DNA of 64,000 nt. It comes from Romboutsia sp. CE17 (GTDB lineage: Bacteria > Bacillota > Clostridia > Peptostreptococcales > Peptostreptococcaceae). Shown here piece after piece: positions 8,858 through 22,501 of the stretch (its first letter is position 1; each line of letters begins with the position of its first letter). The notes beneath the pieces are model-generated. The model was not told the origin of the DNA. It searched no databases and saw only the letters and a list, made by a program, of their open reading frames with translations. Made by a program: the position numbers and the translations under genes. The DNA is taken from contig NZ_CP051144.1 of the NCBI RefSeq assembly GCF_012317385.1, positions 620,001 to 684,000 of the forward strand. Reading direction: 5' to 3'.

Positions 8858-9904
8858 GTGGAAAAATATAAAAGACTAACAGAAATGACAACTTCGGGAG
8901 GCTGAGCCGCTAAAATAGGGCCAGAGGTTCTGGCTTCGGTATTAAGTCAACTTCCTAAGAATGAAAGTGATAAGATAAATAACTTATTAGTTGGGCTAGA
9001 GACAGCTGATGATGCTGCAGTATATAAATTAAATGATGACATGGCCTTAATACAAACTTTAGATTTTTTTACACCTATGATAGATGATCCATATATTTTT
9101 GGACAAATAGCAGCTGCAAACTCCTTATCAGATGTATACGCAATGGGTGGAAAACCAATAGTGGCTATGAATATAGTTTGTTTTCCTTCATGCCATGATA
9201 TGGATGTTTTAGCTCAAATAATGAAAGGTGGATTTGATAAAGTAAAAGAGAGTGGAGCCCTTTTAGTAGGAGGACATACTGTTGATGATAAAGAGCCTAA
9301 GTATGGGTTATCTGTATCAGGAATAGTCCATCCTAAAAAGGTTTTATCTAATGCTACATCGAAACCAGGAGATATTTTAATTCTTACTAAACCATTAGGT
9401 GTGGGTATATTAAATACAGCTATGAAAGCTGACTTGATTAGTAAAGAAACAGAAAAAAAAGTTATTAATGTTATGACTCATCTTAATAAATATGCAGCAA
9501 TGAGTTTTGATAAAATAGATGTTAACTCTGTAACGGATATAACTGGATTTGGGCTTTTAGGACATGCATTAGAAATGGCAAAAGCTTCAGATGTGAGTAT
9601 TCATATAAATTCAAAAGAAGTTCCTATAATAGAAGAAACTATAGATATGGCAAGAATGGGAATTATACCATCTGGAATGTATAGAAATAAGCAATATATT
9701 GAAAATGATGTAGATATGAATAGTGTAGATACGGCAATTAGAGATATATTATATGACCCACAAACATCAGGTGGATTATTAATATCTGTAAAAGAAAAAT
9801 ATGCGGATAAACTTATAAAAGATATGAAAGATAATGGTTCTATAGAAGCAAAAATAATAGGACATGTAACAACAAAAGGAGATAAATATATTACTGTTAG
9901 ATAA
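8858..9904 (+). CDS. selD: Selenide, water dikinase SelD, itself a selenoprotein (in-frame UGA)
   Basis: Makes selenophosphate from selenide and ATP, the selenium donor for Sec-tRNA. Translation starts at GTG 8858 behind the SD aaaggagg. The frame continues through TGA at 8903-8905, read as selenocysteine at residue 16 in TSGG-U-AAKIG, exactly where other SelD proteins have catalytic Cys or Sec. With this the protein has 348 residues, the normal length; starting after the TGA would lose about 60 residues, including the catalytic residue and Lys. The AIR-synthase-like fold is clear ([39 protein letters not shown]). A SECIS-like hairpin follows the UGA. It heads the selD-selA-selB cluster. Confidence 0.97.
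8918..8936 (+). promoter_or_regulatory. Bacterial SECIS hairpin in selD
   Basis: The perfect stem gccaga/tctggc (8920-8925 with 8929-8934) closes a GGT apical loop and can be extended by two G-T wobbles. It begins 14 bases after the UGA. A short stem topped by GGU at this distance is the known SelB-binding bSECIS arrangement, as in E. coli fdhF. Confidence 0.8.
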
Positions 9905-9938: not shown

Positions 9939-11339
9939 TTGGATAAGAAGAAGCTATTTGCTATGTTACCTTCTGTAGATGAGATTTTAGGAGATGATAG
10001 TTTAAAATCTATATTAAATGAATATCCTAGATCTCTTGTTCTAGATTCTGTGAGACAAGCTATAGATGAAAAAAGAAAGTTAATTATTAAATTAGATGAA
10101 AATAATGAGGGTATAGAAATTAATAACTCAGATATAATTATAGATTCTATAAAAAAAATTAAAGTTAATTATTCTCTATCTCTTAAAAATGTTATTAATG
10201 GAACTGGTGTAGTATTACATACTAACTTAGGGAGATCTTTGCTTAGTGAAAGTATTAAAGAAGAGGTCTGGGAAATCGCATCTAAGTATTCTAATTTAGA
10301 ATATGATATAGAACTTGGGCAGAGAGGTTCTAGATATGTTCATCTAGTAGATATAATAAAAAAATTAACAAAAGCAGAAGATGTATTGATTGTAAATAAT
10401 AATGCAGCAGCAGTATTATTAGTTTTAAATACATTAGCAAAGAATAAAGATGTTATAGTTTCAAGAGGAGAGTTAGTAGAAGTCGGAGGATCTTTTAGAA
10501 TACCAAGTATAATGTCTTTAAGTGGCGCAAAGTTAGTAGAAGTTGGAGCAACCAATAAAACTCATATTTTAGATTATGAGGAAGCTATAAATGAAGATAC
10601 TAATATCTTAATGAAAGTTCACACGAGTAATTATAAAATTTTAGGATTTACAGAAAGTGTAGGACTTGATGAATTATCTAAGATAAGCAAAAAATATAAT
10701 ATTCCTCTTGTTGAAGACTTAGGAAGTGGTGTACTTATAGATCTATCTAAATATGGATTATCATATGAACCCACTGTATTAGATTCCATAAAAAAAGGAG
10801 TAGATATTGTTACCTTCAGTGGAGATAAAATGTTAGGAGGACCACAAGCTGGAATTATAGTTGGAAAAAAAGAGTATATAGACAAAATGAAGAAAAATCA
10901 GTTAACTCGAGCATTAAGAGTTGATAAAATTACAATAGCAGCTTTAGAAGCTACCTTTAGATTATATTTAGATGAAAAAAAAGCAGTTAAAGAAATTCCT
11001 ACCTTAAGAATGCTTACATATAGTTTAGATGAATTAAAAGATAGAGCTAAGAAATTTTTAGATATGTTAAACAAATTGAAATTAAATATAGATATTAAGC
11101 TTGAAGAAGGATTCTCTCAAGTTGGAGGTGGGTCTATGCCCATTGAAAGGATGAATACATACTTGATATCTTTAAGGCCTAATAACATTAGCGTCTCTTC
11201 ATTAGAAGAAAAATTGAGGCTAAGTAACTCACATATAATAGGAAGAATATCTGAGGATAGGTACTTACTAGATGTAAGGACCATATTTGATAACCAATTT
11301 GAAATTATAGCTAAAGAAATAAAAAATGCTTTAATTTAA
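9939..11339 (+). CDS. selA: L-seryl-tRNA(Sec) selenium transferase
   Basis: PLP enzyme that converts Ser-tRNA-Sec to Sec-tRNA-Sec with selenophosphate; it forms a homodecamer in the cytoplasm. It has 466 residues, the usual length. The PLP lysine is K297 in [30 protein letters not shown] (85-100) and [11 protein letters not shown] are family signatures, and the N terminus has the typical LPSVDEIL. The start is TTG at 9939 behind a weak SD (aagaaag), 34 bases after selD; the next ATG (9963) would cut into the conserved N-terminal helix. It is followed by selB after 23 bases. Confidence 0.96.
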
Positions 11340-11362: not shown

Positions 11363-13246
11363 ATGAATAATATAATAATAGGAACAGCGGGACATGTAGA
11401 TCATGGAAAAACAACCCTTATAAAAGCACTTACAGGGAGAGATACAGATACCTTAGAAGAGGAAAAGAAAAGGGGCATTTCTATAAATTTAGGTTTTACA
11501 TATTTTGATTTACCGAGTAAAAAAAGAGCTGGTATAGTAGATGTACCTGGACATGAAAAATTTATAAAAAATATGTTAGCAGGAGCATCAGGTATTGATA
11601 TAGTATTATTAGTTATTGCTTGTGATGAAGGTGTAATGCCACAAACTATTGAACATTTAGATATACTACATTTTTTAAATGTAAATAAAGGAATAATAGT
11701 TCTTACTAAATGTAATAGTGTAGATATTGAATTTAAGGAATTAGTAAAAGAAGATATAAGAGAGAAGCTTAAAGGTAGTTTTCTTGAAAAATCGGAAATA
11801 ATAGAAGTTGATTCTATTTCAGGATATGGAATAAAAAATTTGATAAATACTATAGATAATATTAGTAATGAAATTGAAGAAAAACATGAAGGTTTTCCAG
11901 CTAGACTTAATATAGATAGAGTATTTTCATTAAAAGGATTTGGAACTATTGTAACAGGAACATTATTAGAAGGTGTTATTAATATAGATGATGATTTAGA
12001 AGTCTATCCAAAAGGTTTAAAAGTAAAAATAAGAGGGATACAAGTTCATGGAAAAAATGTAGAATGCGTATATGCAGGTCAGAGAGCTGCTATAAATATA
12101 TCTAATTTAAAAGTTGATGATATAAAAAGAGGTGATGTTCTAGCATATAGCAATTCATTAAAAGAATCAAATATGCTAGATGTTAAAATTACTCTAGTAA
12201 GTCACACCGATAAAGTATTAAAGCATTGGGATAGGATTAAATTATATCAAGGGACAAGAGAAGTTTTATGTAGGGTTGTTCTATTAGATAAAGAAATTTT
12301 AAAAAGTGGAGAAAGTGCATATGTACAATTACGTCTAGAGGAGGGAATTGTAGCAAAACAAGGTGATAGATTTGTTATTAGAACTTATTCTCCTATGGAA
12401 ACTATAGGTGGAGGGATTGTCCTAGATACATGTGTAAAAAAACACAAAAAGTTTGACCCTATAGTTATAGAATCATTAAAAATTAAAGAAAAAAGAAATC
12501 CTAAAGATATTATATCTGAATATTTAAGGTTACATAAAAATAAGTATATAACAATGAAGGAACTTAAGTCATATACTGGTTTTTATGAGAGTGATATTGA
12601 AGATATTATAATGGAACTTGTAAAAAAAGATGAAGTTATATTATTTAACAATTATTACTTACATAAAAATAAATATGAAAATTTAAAACAAGAGATTCTA
12701 AATTTACTAGAAGATTTCCATAAAAAAAATCGATTAAAAAAAGGTATATCTAAGGAAGAACTTAGAAGTAAAATTGATTCTAATCTAAAAAATAAAGATA
12801 TTGATTTACTTATAAGTAAAATTAGTAATGAAAGTTTAATAAAACTAACGAATAACTTAGTATCTTTAAGTAGTTTTAAAGTTACTTTTAATAGTAAGCA
12901 AAAAGAAATTAAATTAAATATAAAAGATAAGTTGAAGAATTCTGGATTATCTTCAATAATGACCATAGATGATATTTGCAATAAAAATAATTATTATAAA
13001 GAAGTATTAGAGTCTATGATAGGTGAAGAAATAGAACTATTAGATGATAAGTATGTATTAGATACAAATGATTATTTAAAGGCAAAGAAAACATTAATAA
13101 GCTATATAGAAAATAATAAGAGTATAACCTTAGGTGAGTATAAAAAATTAATAAACTCAAGTAGGAAAAACTGTTTAATAATTTTAGAACATTTTGATAG
13201 AAAACAAATTACAAAAAGAATAGAAGATAGAAGAGTATTATATTAA
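11363..13246 (+). CDS. selB: Selenocysteine-specific elongation factor SelB
   Basis: EF-Tu-like GTPase that delivers Sec-tRNA-Sec to the ribosome at UGA codons marked by a SECIS hairpin. It has 627 residues. The G domain carries GTAGHVDHGKT (7-17), a switch region with KRGISINLGF and DVPGHEKF. Two beta-barrel domains follow, and the C-terminal 260 residues form the winged-helix repeats that bind the SECIS. The guanine-specificity motif, usually (N/T)KxD, reads TKCN at 115-118, so the Asp is replaced by Asn. The SD aaggggg precedes the ATG. It is the last gene of selD-selA-selB and is followed by a strong terminator. Confidence 0.96.
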   Translation: MNNIIIGTAGHVDHGKTTLIKALTGRDTDTLEEEKKRGISINLGFTYFDLPSKKRAGIVDVPGHEKFIKNMLAGASGIDIVLLVIACDEGVMPQTIEHLDILHFLNVNKGIIVLTKCNSVDIEFKELVKEDIREKLKGSFLEKSEIIEVDSISGYGIKNLINTIDNISNEIEEKHEGFPARLNIDRVFSLKGFGTIVTGTLLEGVINIDDDLEVYPKGLKVKIRGIQVHGKNVECVYAGQRAAINISNLKVDDIKRGDVLAYSNSLKESNMLDVKITLVSHTDKVLKHWDRIKLYQGTREVLCRVVLLDKEILKSGESAYVQLRLEEGIVAKQGDRFVIRTYSPMETIGGGIVLDTCVKKHKKFDPIVIESLKIKEKRNPKDIISEYLRLHKNKYITMKELKSYTGFYESDIEDIIMELVKKDEVILFNNYYLHKNKYENLKQEILNLLEDFHKKNRLKKGISKEELRSKIDSNLKNKDIDLLISKISNESLIKLTNNLVSLSSFKVTFNSKQKEIKLNIKDKLKNSGLSSIMTIDDICNKNNYYKEVLESMIGEEIELLDDKYVLDTNDYLKAKKTLISYIENNKSITLGEYKKLINSSRKNCLIILEHFDRKQITKRIEDRRVLY

Positions 13247-13379: not shown

Positions 13380-16088
13380 ATGTTAATAAATATAAATAAT
13401 AAAAATGTTGATAGAATTAGTATTATTTATTTTTCAATAATGATTGTACTATTTACATTGGTAAGAAATAAATTGGAATTTATACTGCTTGTAAACTGCT
13501 TATATGCAGCACTTTTAATAGTTATAGTAATAATTATGAGTAAAACAATTAAGTTTAATCCAAATACAAATACTACATTTTTAGGAATTATATGTACAAC
13601 AATAGGAATTTTAGAGGTTACATTCATATTAATTAATATAAATTATACAAGTTTTGAATTGAGTTATTTTGATTATGGATTTTGTTTGTTTATAGATTTA
13701 CTTAAGCTTATTGGAATATATTCAAGTTTCTACTTAAGTTTAAATAAAATAAAGTTAGGTGAAATTCTTATAAGATTTATTAAGCTATTATCTGTATCCT
13801 TAATGATTTCAATCTTTTTTAGCTTTATTATAAAAATGATTTTTAATATTAGTATTAATTTATTCATAATAATCGAAAGTACGATTACAATTTTGACATG
13901 TGTTACATTTATTATTATTAGAAATAATATAAGAACTACAAAAGATGATAGTTTAGAGAGAGATCTTTTATTTAGAATTATACTTTTATTTACAATAGCT
14001 AGATTTATCATGGTAACTATTTATATTATATATAATTTAAGCTGGGGATATCAGTTAAGTAAGTTTGTATCAAATATGTGGATTTATTACATTTATAGAT
14101 ATATATATTACATAAATATAAAAAAGCCATATGAAGAATTAAGTGAAATTAATGAAAGACTAAAATTATACTCTAGAAAATTAAGCTATAAAAATGAGAG
14201 GATAATTTTAGAAATGAAAAAAACTCAAATGTTAAAAGATCGTTTGAATATAAATGATCAGAAATTACGCTTAACCATTAATAGTGCAATGAATCCAACT
14301 ATTATTTTCTCTAATAATAAAGACATTATATATAGTAATAAATCATTTGAAATAGAGTTTTCAGATGGTAATAATTATAGTATAGATTATATGTTGAGAT
14401 CTAAATTCAAAGAATATAACAAGATACTTGAAACAGTAAATACTGTTATTGATAAAGGAAAAGAGATAAAAATAAATATAGAAAGTGAAAATTCTAAATT
14501 TTATAAAGTAATACTTACACCTTTTATAATAAATAATAAAAATGAAGGGTGTTTATGTATTTTTATGGATAACACGAAAGAAACTGTATTTGAAAAAGAG
14601 ACTATCTCTATGAACTTATGTTACGATAATTTTTTAGAAAGTATTAATGATGGAATTCTTTTACTAGAGAACAGAAAAATATTATATGCTAACAATGCGT
14701 GTAAAAAAATGTTTAAAAATGATTTATCAGTTATTGATACATATATTGCTGAAGATAAAAATATAAAAGAAGAGATATATATAATAGATGGAGAAAAAAT
14801 ATATGTAGAAATGATATATTCAAAATATAGTAAAGATAAAGTTAGTATAGTAATTAGAAATATTACTGAAAGAAAAGTAGCAGAAGAAAGACTAAAGGAA
14901 AGAAAAGAATCATATTCAAGGTTAATAGATATACTCCCTGATGGTATATGTTTATTAGATTATAATTACAATATAAAATACTTAAATCAATCTATATTAA
15001 ATATTGTTAATATTAATAATGATTATGATAGCTATACTATAAGAGATATAATTAAGTTAAGTTCTGATGAAGAAATTTTATTATTAAAAAATCTTAGAAA
15101 GGTTATAAAAAATAACCAACACTTTATATTATTAAACAAGCAACTTATATCTAAAAATAATGTTAATATAGATGTTGAAATAAATGCGATACCGTTTTCT
15201 GATGATGGTAATAATAAATATATAATGTTAATAATCAAAGACTTAACTAATAAAAAAACAAGTGAGTTAGTCGAAAAAGAACTATCAGAAAGATTAGAAA
15301 CTGATAAGGTGAAGACCGAGTTTTTTACAAGTATGTCTCATGAATTAAAGACGCCTTTAAATGTAATATTTAGTTCAAATCAATTATTAGAATCTTTTTA
15401 TAAATCTGGGAAGATTAATGACTATAATAATAATATTAATAGCCATATAGATTTAGTTAAGACAAACTCATATAGGCTTCAAAGATTAATAAATAACATA
15501 ATAGATTTAACTAAGCTTGAATCAGGGTTCTATAGGTTAAATTTATCTAAATCAAATATTGTAGAAATAGTTGAAGACCTATTTATGAAGATTGAAAAAT
15601 ATGCGAGAAAAAAAAATATTGGATTAGTATTTGACACAGAATCAGAAGAAATAAATTTATTTATTGATAAGTCAGAAATTGAAAGAATTATGTTAAATCT
15701 ATTATCTAATTGTGTAAAGTTTACACCTGATCATGAAGAAATAATTGTAAATATATATGATAGAGAAAATTCGGCATGTATTAGTGTAAAGAATACCGGA
15801 ATCGGTATACCAAAAGATAAATTAGATACTATATTTGAAGAATTTTCTCAAGTTGATAAGACATTATCAAGAAATACAGAAGGAAGTGGTATAGGATTAT
15901 CTATAGTTAAGAATTTAGTAGAACTTCACGGTGGAAAAATAGAAGTTAAGAGTGAAGAAAATAAGGAAACGGAGTTTATAATAACTTTAAATAAAAATAA
16001 ACAAGATAATCTTAAAGAACAAAAAAATAAAGCAATATATAATATTGAAGAGAAAATAAATATTGAGTTTTCAGATATATATTATTAA
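13380..16088 (+). CDS. Membrane PAS-domain sensor histidine kinase (first of tandem pair)
   Basis: Orphan sensor kinase of 902 residues. About seven to eight membrane segments fill residues 1-240, followed by a coiled coil and three PAS-like domains starting near 297, 415 and 515. The HisKA domain has phospho-acceptor H654 in SMSHELKTPLN. The HATPase domain has the N box LLSNCVKF and G2 box GSGIGLSIVKN, but its G1 box reads NTGIGIP, with Asn where Asp is usual. No response regulator or receiver domain is near. By position after selB and by architecture it resembles the C. difficile orphan kinases that feed Spo0A phosphorylation; this is inference. The SD agggggat is about 13 bases before the ATG, rather far. 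The second kinase starts 14 bases downstream. Confidence 0.88.
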   Translation: MLININNKNVDRISIIYFSIMIVLFTLVRNKLEFILLVNCLYAALLIVIVIIMSKTIKFNPNTNTTFLGIICTTIGILEVTFILININYTSFELSYFDYGFCLFIDLLKLIGIYSSFYLSLNKIKLGEILIRFIKLLSVSLMISIFFSFIIKMIFNISINLFIIIESTITILTCVTFIIIRNNIRTTKDDSLERDLLFRIILLFTIARFIMVTIYIIYNLSWGYQLSKFVSNMWIYYIYRYIYYINIKKPYEELSEINERLKLYSRKLSYKNERIILEMKKTQMLKDRLNINDQKLRLTINSAMNPTIIFSNNKDIIYSNKSFEIEFSDGNNYSIDYMLRSKFKEYNKILETVNTVIDKGKEIKINIESENSKFYKVILTPFIINNKNEGCLCIFMDNTKETVFEKETISMNLCYDNFLESINDGILLLENRKILYANNACKKMFKNDLSVIDTYIAEDKNIKEEIYIIDGEKIYVEMIYSKYSKDKVSIVIRNITERKVAEERLKERKESYSRLIDILPDGICLLDYNYNIKYLNQSILNIVNINNDYDSYTIRDIIKLSSDEEILLLKNLRKVIKNNQHFILLNKQLISKNNVNIDVEINAIPFSDDGNNKYIMLIIKDLTNKKTSELVEKELSERLETDKVKTEFFTSMSHELKTPLNVIFSSNQLLESFYKSGKINDYNNNINSHIDLVKTNSYRLQRLINNIIDLTKLESGFYRLNLSKSNIVEIVEDLFMKIEKYARKKNIGLVFDTESEEINLFIDKSEIERIMLNLLSNCVKFTPDHEEIIVNIYDRENSACISVKNTGIGIPKDKLDTIFEEFSQVDKTLSRNTEGSGIGLSIVKNLVELHGGKIEVKSEENKETEFIITLNKNKQDNLKEQKNKAIYNIEEKINIEFSDIYY

Positions 16089-16102: not shown

Positions 16103-18922
16103 ATGGAGATAAGTAGTATAAAATCAAAGGGGAAGATTTCATCTATTCAGATAAAAGTTTTTAGTATACTTATATTTATGACACTTATTTATTTTAGTTA
16201 TACAAATATACAGTTATATGGGATATCTGTTATTATAGCTAGGCTTACTCTTAGTATACTAATAGTAACTTTTACAGTAGGTGTAAATAAATCTAAGTTA
16301 GACTATATGAGTTTTATAGGTATAACATATATTATTTCAAATATTTTGTATATAAGTAACTTATTAATATTTAATGATATGAGGTATCTTTCAGAGGCTT
16401 TAATAATAAGAAATATCTTAGAATCTGTAACTATATATTTGATTATTGATAATGTTTACAAGAAATCATCTGTATCAAAACAAAGCACATCTAATGTATT
16501 TTCAATATACTTTGTATTTTCTATAGTTACATATTTAATTATAAAATATAACTATAACTTTATGAAAAAAAATAATTTAAATTTAGGCATATTTGAAATC
16601 ATAGTATTAATAAATGTACTTTTATTGTTTAATACTATTAAAAAAAACTTATATTATGTAAAAAATAATGATGATTTTTTAGAATGTGAAAAATTTAAGA
16701 TTATTAATAAAGTTATTATATTAAAGTTATACTTTTTTATAGGATTATTATTTTTAATGAACGTAAAACTTTTAGAATTTGATTTTTATAAATTACTAGA
16801 AGTTGTAAGTATACTAGAAACTTATTATATATATAAATTTACAGTAGATTTAAACTTAATTAATCCTTATATAAAAAAAATAGAGATTAATAAAAAGCTA
16901 GAAGAACAATATATTAAGCAAAAGTCTATAGGTAATATTTTAAAAAATATGTTAGATGTACAAAAAGATATAAAAAAAGAAATGCAATATAAGGAAGATT
17001 TATTTTATCAAATATTATCGTCAACTCCAAATGGGTGGATTGTATTTGATAGAAATAAAAAAATAACTTATATTAATAAATCTATGAAAAATATTTGTTC
17101 TATAAACTCCAAAAATAATTACAATGATATCAATGCAAAATTGAAAGATGTTATAGTAAATTATGATGAATTTATTAATAAGTTGAATGAATTAGATAAT
17201 ACTACTGATACAATTGAATATGAAATACAGACCTATAGTGGAAAATATTATAAGTGTGTATATTCAAAAGATGAGATATCAAATGAAAGGGTATGTATTT
17301 TCAGGGATATTTCTAATGAAAAGAACATGATCAATAGTATGATATATTTAAAAAAAGAATATGAAAAATTAATAAGTAGTATAGGTTGTCCGATAATTAT
17401 ATATGATAAATACAATAATATTATTCAATCTAGCAAAGCTTACGAAAAACTTTTTAATAATTCTACAGTTCACTATAAAGATATAGAATTTTATAATTAT
17501 GTTATGGAAATTAATAAAAAAGCAATGACAAATAAAGAATTATATGATAATGGAGTATTTAGATATAGAAGAATAGATAATGATGGAGAGGTAATATGGA
17601 TAGAGTCGACAGTAACAATATTTTATGAGGGAAGCAAAAAATATATTGTAGAGAGTCATAGCGATATTACATATCACATTGAGAATAGAGAAGCTATTAG
17701 ACAAAGTCAAAATATGTATAAAGCTTTATTAGATGAAATACCTGAAGGCATTTATTTAGAAGACCTAGATACTAATAAATATATTTACGTTAATAAGAAA
17801 TTTAAAGATATTTTTAAGTTAGATGAAGAAATAAATGATGAAATATTAGGCATATGTAGAGAAGATTTTATGAAAGTTCATCCTGATTATAATGAAGTAG
17901 TTAATGATAACATATATAATGTAAAACAAGGGAAAAATTCAGATTATTATAAAATAAAATATTTTGATAAAGATGAAAATATAATTGAAACACAAGTAGC
18001 TAGCATACCTTTTAAAGTAGATAGAAAAGTATTTAAGCTTACTATAATCAAAGATATGAAAGATATAAGAAAGTTAGAGTCTTTAAAAAAGCAAATTATA
18101 GAACGAGAAAAGAGGGATAGTATAAAGACACAGTTTTTTATAAATATGTCTCATGAACTAAAAACACCTCTAAACCTTATATTCACTAGTACACAATTAA
18201 TAGAAAATCTATATAATAAAGGGAAAATTTCAGATGAAGATGAGGTTGTAAAAAAACATATTGATTTAACAAAGCAAAATAGCTATAGATTAATTAAAAT
18301 AATAAATGATTTAATTGACTTTACTAAAATGGAATCAGGCTTTTATAAGCTTAGATTAGAAAATAAAAATATTATAAGTATAATAGAAGATATAGTTATG
18401 TCTGTAGTAAATTATGCTAGTAATAATAATATTAATATAGTTTTTGATACTAATGTAGAAGATTTAATAATCTCAGTTGATGTAAACGCTATAGAGAGAA
18501 TATTACTAAACATATTATCCAATGCAATTAAATTTACAGGTGATGGTGGAAATATATATGTGAATCTTATATATAAAAATGGTAAAGTAAGTATAGAAAT
18601 AGAAGATACAGGTATTGGTATACCAAAGGATAAATTAGATCATATATTTGATAGATTTAATGATATTAATAAAGGGTATATTGGGAATGTATATGGAAGT
18701 GGTATAGGTTTATCAATTGTTAAATCAATGGTAAACCTAATAGGTGCAAGTATAAAGGTTGAGAGTGAACTTAATGTAGGAACTAAATTTACTATAACTA
18801 TGGATGTTAATTTATTAGATGAAGAAGAATATTATTATGAATATGGCTTAGAAAATTCATCTAATATAGATAGATTAACAATAGGAATGACTGATGTATA
18901 TAAAGAGACTATAGCAAAATAG
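16103..18922 (+). CDS. Membrane PAS-domain sensor histidine kinase (second of tandem pair)
   Basis: Orphan sensor kinase of 939 residues with the same plan as its upstream neighbour: about eight membrane segments (1-250), a coiled linker, PAS-like domains beginning near 305, 422 and 537, HisKA with H684 in NMSHELKTPLNLIF, and a full HATPase domain (N box NILSNAIKF, G1 DTGIGIP, G2 GSGIGLSIVKS). The two kinases are clearly paralogous, most similar in the kinase core and much less so in the sensor part, which suggests tandem duplication followed by change of signal. No cognate regulator is encoded nearby. The last codons and stop form the 5' arm of the terminator. Confidence 0.9.
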   Translation: MEISSIKSKGKISSIQIKVFSILIFMTLIYFSYTNIQLYGISVIIARLTLSILIVTFTVGVNKSKLDYMSFIGITYIISNILYISNLLIFNDMRYLSEALIIRNILESVTIYLIIDNVYKKSSVSKQSTSNVFSIYFVFSIVTYLIIKYNYNFMKKNNLNLGIFEIIVLINVLLLFNTIKKNLYYVKNNDDFLECEKFKIINKVIILKLYFFIGLLFLMNVKLLEFDFYKLLEVVSILETYYIYKFTVDLNLINPYIKKIEINKKLEEQYIKQKSIGNILKNMLDVQKDIKKEMQYKEDLFYQILSSTPNGWIVFDRNKKITYINKSMKNICSINSKNNYNDINAKLKDVIVNYDEFINKLNELDNTTDTIEYEIQTYSGKYYKCVYSKDEISNERVCIFRDISNEKNMINSMIYLKKEYEKLISSIGCPIIIYDKYNNIIQSSKAYEKLFNNSTVHYKDIEFYNYVMEINKKAMTNKELYDNGVFRYRRIDNDGEVIWIESTVTIFYEGSKKYIVESHSDITYHIENREAIRQSQNMYKALLDEIPEGIYLEDLDTNKYIYVNKKFKDIFKLDEEINDEILGICREDFMKVHPDYNEVVNDNIYNVKQGKNSDYYKIKYFDKDENIIETQVASIPFKVDRKVFKLTIIKDMKDIRKLESLKKQIIEREKRDSIKTQFFINMSHELKTPLNLIFTSTQLIENLYNKGKISDEDEVVKKHIDLTKQNSYRLIKIINDLIDFTKMESGFYKLRLENKNIISIIEDIVMSVVNYASNNNINIVFDTNVEDLIISVDVNAIERILLNILSNAIKFTGDGGNIYVNLIYKNGKVSIEIEDTGIGIPKDKLDHIFDRFNDINKGYIGNVYGSGIGLSIVKSMVNLIGASIKVESELNVGTKFTITMDVNLLDEEEYYYEYGLENSSNIDRLTIGMTDVYKETIAK

Positions 18923-22404: not shown

Positions 22405-22501
22405 GGGGGTGGATGGGTTCTGGTGTGCCCTCTAGTCTTCAAAACTAGTATGAGGAGTTAATAGCTTCTTAGGTGGGTTCGATTCCCACGCATTCCCGCC
22501 A
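22405..22501 (+). tRNA. selC: tRNA-Sec (anticodon TCA)
   Basis: A selenocysteine tRNA of 97 bases including an encoded CCA (22499-22501). The anticodon stem ctagt/actag holds the loop cttcaaa with anticodon TCA (22439-22441). The T arm is gtggg-ttcgatt-cccac, the long variable arm has a 7-bp stem (22451-22457 with 22465-22471), and the D arm has a 4-base loop, all as expected of tRNA-Sec. The acceptor pairs 22405-22411 with 22491-22497, including two G-T wobbles; the eighth pair is G-G (22412/22490), and the D stem has one T-T mismatch. The discriminator base is G. It lies 9 kb from selD-selA-selB and completes the Sec decoding set. Confidence 0.93.

Follow-up and report, generated by a model that had tools for sequence, protein, structure and literature searches.

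A SelB from Romboutsia sp. CE17 in which guanine may be read through the G5 rather than the G4 motif

The selB gene in a 64,000-nucleotide stretch of Romboutsia sp. CE17 DNA (hereafter the window) probably encodes a working protein in which the Watson-Crick edge of guanine would be read by an aspartate of the G5 motif, Asp150, instead of the aspartate of the G4 motif, whose position (118) is occupied by Asn. SelB is the elongation factor by which selenocysteyl-tRNA is delivered at recoded UGA codons. Comparison of 271 distinct SelB sequences further inclines us to the view that, in several Bacillota lineages, the residue that confers guanine specificity no longer lies in the NKxD but in the SAK motif, a move made via living double-Asp intermediates, such that the "invariant" Asp position would now be a free site.

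The identity of the gene is well defined. The open reading frame contains no internal stops, and its product scores 353.4 bits against NCBIfam TIGR00475, exceeding the curated family cut-off of 242.25. The Pfam domains follow the order PF00009, PF03144 and PF25461 (EF-Tu-type and beta-barrel) and then the winged-helix domains PF09106 and PF09107. An AlphaFold2 model built with no ligand (mean pLDDT 86.8, with 44 at residues 31-40) matches solved SelB and EF-Tu structures, with Z 38.2 and rmsd 5.2 over 570 aligned residues for 4ZU9. Domain order, fold, and the G1-G3 motifs are shared with the canonical SelB structures 5LZB-D and 4ZU9, which we take to be the E. coli and Aquifex proteins, respectively. 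These have an Asp in G4 (TKAD and TKMD) and Ala or Ser in G5, whereas the SelB of the window has Asn and Asp. Gene decay was considered and is not supported: the protein differs at 10 of 183 columns that are at least 95% conserved among 63 distinct relatives of 50% identity or more, a leave-one-out count that is tied fourth highest of 64 (maximum 20) and that describes a somewhat divergent, not a degenerate, protein.

Table 1. Features of the window discussed in the text (window positions).
Feature	Position	Strand	Basis
selD, selenide water dikinase	8858..9904	+	TIGR00476, 407 bits
Hairpin after the selD UGA, weak candidate bacterial SECIS	8906..8940	+	z -1.73; 11/200 shuffles fold as well
selA, L-seryl-tRNA(Sec) selenium transferase	9939..11339	+	TIGR00474, 624 bits
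selB, selenocysteine-specific elongation factor, 627 aa	11363..13246	+	TIGR00475, Pfam domains, fold matches
G1/P-loop GHVDHGKT, residues 10-17, intact	11390..11413	+	translation, alignment
G3 DVPGH, residues 60-64, intact	11540..11554	+	translation, alignment
G4 TKCN, residues 115-118	11705..11716	+	translation, alignment
Asp121, substitute suggested in the original prediction	11723..11725	+	D/E in nearly all SelBs, with or without Asp118
Asp150 (GAT), first G5 residue (V-D-S), candidate guanine-reading carboxylate	11810..11812	+	alignment
tRNA-Sec, anticodon TCA	22405..22497	+	Rfam RF01852, 67.9 bits

The selB gene lies behind selD and selA, and both of these, together with tRNA-Sec, are found within the window (Table 1). 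In selD, an in-frame TGA at 8903-8905 is read as selenocysteine (N-terminal stretch GGUAAKIGPE), presumably at the position of the N-terminal catalytic Cys/Sec residue of SelD. Hence, production of full-length SelD needs a working SelB. With SelD itself a selenoprotein, SelB and SelD are mutually dependent for selenoprotein synthesis. Directly downstream of selB are two tandem genes for PAS-type sensor histidine kinases (13380-16088 and 16103-18922, both on the + strand), for which the best match is NF047874 (MASE3_PAS_HK) with 518 and 460 bits, below the curated cut-off of 560.

The G4 motif departs from the canonical TRAFAC form, [NT]KxD, at its fourth position, where codon 118 is AAT (11714-11716). 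This Asn, and the motif TKCN at residues 115-118, had been read from the DNA in the original prediction and are borne out by translation of 11363-13246. The other G motifs had been described there as intact, which holds for G1, G2 (GISI) and G3 but not for G5. The latter reads E148-V149-D150-S151 and deviates from the canonical [S/C]A[K/L/T] at its first position, with Asp150 in place of the Ser of the SAK consensus. A genome-wide shift of GTPase motifs can be rejected, as NKxD is retained at five of five other GTPase loci of the same genome that were brought in by the same search.

A shifted G4 loop, with Asp121 in the role of the missing Asp, had also been put forward and was rejected. Residues 105-120 are gap-free in every alignment row, and the AlphaFold2 model keeps the short helix at 117-119. 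Two rows, each of which has Asp118, contain an additional residue after position 120 and before 121. Residue 121 is Asp or Glu in 225 of the 227 rows with Asp118 and in 43 of the 44 without it; being nearly universal in both, this residue does not qualify as a special substitute.

To place residues 118 and 150 in context, SelB sequences were gathered from several samples. The initial contig search provided 80 loci, kept of 572 relatives. In the family of the window, 71 genomes were searched and 68 have a SelB. A phylum draw of 299 genomes gave 205 with a match, from which 70 loci were read (the best 30 plus 40 hand-picked among the matches listed), while a class draw of 391 genomes gave 60 with a match, all of which were read, some being loci already taken from other searches. 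From the order that includes Enterococcus rivorum, 34 of 295 genomes had a match and contributed 35 genes, the family of genome G566 had matches in 18 of 20 genomes, and among eight genomes of the order to which a Turicibacter genome belongs there was one match, a copy already in the set. In total, 327 loci collapse to 271 distinct SelB sequences.

Asp118 is absent from 44 of these 271 sequences and replaced by Gly, Ser, Ala, Asn, Glu, Thr or Gln, a proportion that does not represent a population frequency, as the E. rivorum order and the G566 family were enlarged after variants had been seen there. Asp150 is present in 43 of the 44, and the remaining row has Glu118. Among the rows without Asp150, Asp118 is retained in 133 of 134, the single exception being this same Glu118 row. 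In other words, all 40 rows that lack both Asp and Glu at 118 have Asp150, and none of the 271 distinct sequences lacks a carboxylate at both positions. The 118/150 pairs are D/S (132), D/D (94), G/D (13), S/D (10), A/D (7), N/D (6), E/D (3), T/D (3), Q/D (1), E/S (1) and D/A (1). Residue 150 alone is Asp in 137 rows, Ser in 133 and Ala in one; in the phylum draw, Ser occupies this position in 68 of the 70 SelBs read. Non-Asp118 residues are found in 18 of 18 members of the G566 family and in 21 of the 35 genes of the E. rivorum order. Within the family to which the window belongs, the alignment of close relatives that had been proposed as a check gives Asp118 in 66 of 68 SelBs, the two others being the Asn of the window and one Gly. 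Moreover, Lys116 is invariant (271/271, window included), and the P-loop and G3 show little or no variation, whether residue 150 is Asp or Ser. This conservation argues that the nucleotide pocket is not decaying.

The genomes behind the variants retain the selenocysteine pathway. Among genomes with a non-Asp118 SelB, selA was found in 43 of 43, and tRNA-Sec in 41 of 42 plus the genome of the window. The exception without tRNA-Sec above the cut-off is G743, a 2.2 Mb metagenome-assembled genome that has selA and whose SelB (L050) is N118/D150; here, the absence is perhaps due to incomplete assembly. In the E. rivorum order, genome G956 carries two selB genes (L300 and L336), with Ala118 and Gly118 and both with Asp150, together with a single selA and a single tRNA-Sec at the thresholds used.

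The distribution of variants also bears on whether Asn118 is real. A sequencing or assembly error, in which GAT was read as AAT, would involve a one-base difference from most relatives, and a single genome of the genus was compared. Such an error is nevertheless highly improbable: the genome is a single contig with 99.94% completeness, and 43 other distinct SelBs have a residue other than Asp at 118, five of them Asn (L050, L312, L321, L323 and L340; four AAT and one AAC), so that an error is not needed as an explanation.

How strongly the two positions are linked depends on which rows are counted. The idea of a relocation was formed on the first 225 distinct rows, before enlargement, of which seven lack Asp118. 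Here, Asp150 is present in 6/6 rows with Asn, Gly or Ser at 118 versus 85/219 others (Fisher p 0.004), and in 6/7 versus 85/218 when the Glu118 row is included (Fisher p 0.018). Every one of the 46 rows that came from the enlargement has Asp150, and 37 lack Asp118. These rows show repeated loss of Asp118 in Asp150 lineages but add no contrast and inflate raw p-values, and the Fisher value of 1e-13 on all 271 rows is inflated by the enlarged variant groups. On two phylogenetic trees (FastTree, 271 rows; IQ-TREE, 91 rows), built with residues 117-119 and 149-151 excluded, losses were placed by parsimony, for the 271-row tree under two alternative placement schemes. On that larger tree, 5/5 or 9/9 losses of Asp/Glu118 fall on Asp150 branches (p 0.0009 and 0.00001), which make up 24-28% of its length, and on the 91-row tree 4/4 do so (33% of length; p 0.013). 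Counting Glu118 as a loss gives 5/6 and 7/8, and 4/5 on the 91-row tree (p 0.003, 0.0003 and 0.043). Changes at residue 150 are rare, with two to four on the trees, which leaves few chances to see Asp150 lost where Asp118 is absent. The 271-row tree shows the G566 family acquiring Asp150 separately, but this gain is not safe: the 91-row tree needs only two changes at this position. Four D118/D150 proteins (L253, L070, L238 and L217) lie outside the main Asp150 group on the 271-row tree; they possibly represent separate gains of the G5 Asp, while the 91-row tree needs fewer changes.

Other columns behave similarly in these comparisons. By raw association with residue 118, Asp150 ranks fourth among all column-residue pairs, behind V331, Q408 and G351. 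A Pagel-type likelihood comparison, which is rough with parameters at their bounds, gives residue 150 the highest likelihood ratio of 23 columns tried (15.1; 8.4 with Glu118 counted as a loss), with close values for I155 (14.9), V353 (14.9), Q408 (13.3), C117 (13.1) and S153 (12.6). An independent-pairs test has zero informative pairs, as rows matched because they differ at 118 hardly ever differ in their G5 state. The tree statistics are not unique to residue 150, and we consider the statistical case supportive but not conclusive. Residue 150 is set apart by its complete coverage (40/40), matching chemistry and expected place in the pocket.

The association of residue 118 with further lineage-marker columns, of roughly the strength seen for 150, would also fit a tolerated weakening of the site. 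In this scenario, GTP is bound more weakly and less selectively, the high cellular GTP concentration and stabilization by Sec-tRNA suffice, and Asp150 is permissive or structural. The affinities of SelB/eEFSec for GTP and GDP are reported to be similar and an exchange factor unneeded (PMC5059743), and a weaker site may be tolerable in such a factor. However, losses of Asp118 would then be expected outside the Asp150 group too, on branches that account for approximately 67-77% of the Asp118-bearing tree length, whereas the proteins without Asp150 keep Asp118 with one exception, which still has a carboxylate. We therefore regard a tolerated weakening as rather unlikely, although it carries more weight than the other alternatives considered here.

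The relocation of guanine reading to Asp150 has a plausible structural basis. Asp150 aligns with the G5 Ser of 4ZU9 and the Ala of 5LZB, a position that we take to correspond to Ser145 of Ras. In the structural accounts of MM1309 (PMC4329189) and human eEFSec (PMC5059743), guanine is bonded on its Watson-Crick edge by the carboxylate of the G4 Asp and on its other side by a G5 backbone amide. A contact of the Ser of the G5 SA[KL] motif with the guanine base has been reported (PMC4316618), and in docking models of Miro a single amino group of adenine is contacted by the counterparts of both Ras S145 and Ras D119 (PMC6321465). With the G5 Ser near the base in other GTPases, an Asp at 150 could supply a carboxylate to N1 and N2. 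Moreover, a PDB survey, which covers more than P-loop GTPases, describes 61 of 298 guanine-binding complexes as using Asp or Glu without NKxD (PMC11594714). A relocated guanine-reading Asp in SelB was not found described in the open-access literature searched, as far as the accessible texts go.

An Asn at the G4 position raises the question of XTP. The corresponding Asp-to-Asn change in EF-Tu makes the protein prefer XTP, a nucleotide that is scarce in cells, over GTP. Engineered changes of this kind also do so in Ras and other GTP-binding proteins, according to PMC7952092. A preference for XTP under selection would be expected to retain Asn. Among the SelBs that have an Asp in G5 and lack Asp118, however, residue 118 is Gly, Ser, Ala, Asn, Glu, Thr or Gln in equivalent proteins; Asn does not look selected, and the site looks released, not re-specified for xanthine. 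Gly, Ala and Ser would not be expected to read xanthine as Asn does. In addition, every SelB surveyed retains a carboxylate at 118 or 150, that of the window being the G5 Asp. A shift to XTP would accordingly come as a great surprise, and the window SelB probably still uses GTP. Of the original suggestion that nucleotide recognition had changed with compensation, the XTP change is thus not supported, while the compensation is probably right in outline, on comparative sequence grounds, but through a different residue, Asp150, which had gone unmentioned.

That the protein has become promiscuous for nucleotides, or has switched to ATP, has a precedent in SpoIVA, an ATPase with a changed base pocket whose G4 Asp was lost as constraint relaxed and whose G5 Ser position is Asn, Asp or Ser (PMC7952092); its use of ATP with such a G5 weighs against the relocation. 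The likeness to the SelBs extends to the weakly constrained G4 Asp site. The same source reports that SpoIVA also lost the G4 Lys, and that its Asp site is mostly Lys, His, Asn or Arg. This joint loss does not apply to the SelB of the window, which keeps Lys116 as do all other SelBs surveyed, and residue 118 of SelB is Asp, Glu, Asn, Gln, Gly, Ser, Ala or Thr. On chemical grounds, a carboxylate at the base edge would be expected to repel N1 of adenine. Promiscuity or use of ATP is, in our judgment, very unlikely.

Other GTPases offer partial parallels to the proposed relocation to Asp150. The archaeal aSelBL proteins and MM1309 are SelB relatives whose G motifs are altered too (PMC3037878, PMC4329189). 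Even the more conservative aSelBLs keep only part of G1 and G4, guanine is still read by the G4 Asp103 in MM1309, and the accessible parts of these accounts describe no relocation. The Group 2/3 MglA GTPases, with a G5 "DAR", have an Asp at the first G5 position, as in the window SelB (PMC4316618). The authors of that study speculate that G5 compensates for the change in G4. In MglA, the proposed compensation consists of an Arg for the G4 Lys, and the Group 2 G4 (NxFD) retains its Asp, unlike the SelB of the window. Closest to hand are the double-Asp SelBs of the Peptostreptococcaceae and Enterococcus (e.g., L009 and L055), which are among the nearest relatives of the window protein (about 45-67% identical). 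They share Asp150 but also keep Asp118, and we take them as the intermediate state; judged by their residues at these two positions, the 94 D118/D150 rows look like evolutionary intermediates.

These comparisons suggest an order of events. Asp150 would have arisen first, in SelBs still carrying Asp118, its carboxylate at the start of G5 contacting N1-H and N2-H of guanine. Two carboxylates at the base edge would have made Asp118 dispensable, and it may then have been lost several times to small or polar residues (Gly, Ser, Ala, Asn, Thr, Gln or Glu), namely in the window genome, in another family of its order, and in the order that contains Enterococcus. GTP binding, presumably with its preference for GTP, and the delivery of Sec-tRNA to UGA codons would have been retained throughout.

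GTPases are recognized by the Asp of NKxD, which also serves as the switch for engineering mutants that depend on XTP. Should a neighbouring loop be able to assume its role, motif-based annotation and the rule that D-to-N means XTP would fail for a definable set of proteins. If true, the case would represent a natural relocation of the residue that defines the specificity of a P-loop GTPase, with both end states and the intermediate sampled. With start, intermediate and end all found in living proteins, the stepwise evolution of a nucleotide-specificity site would become testable in a well-studied factor.
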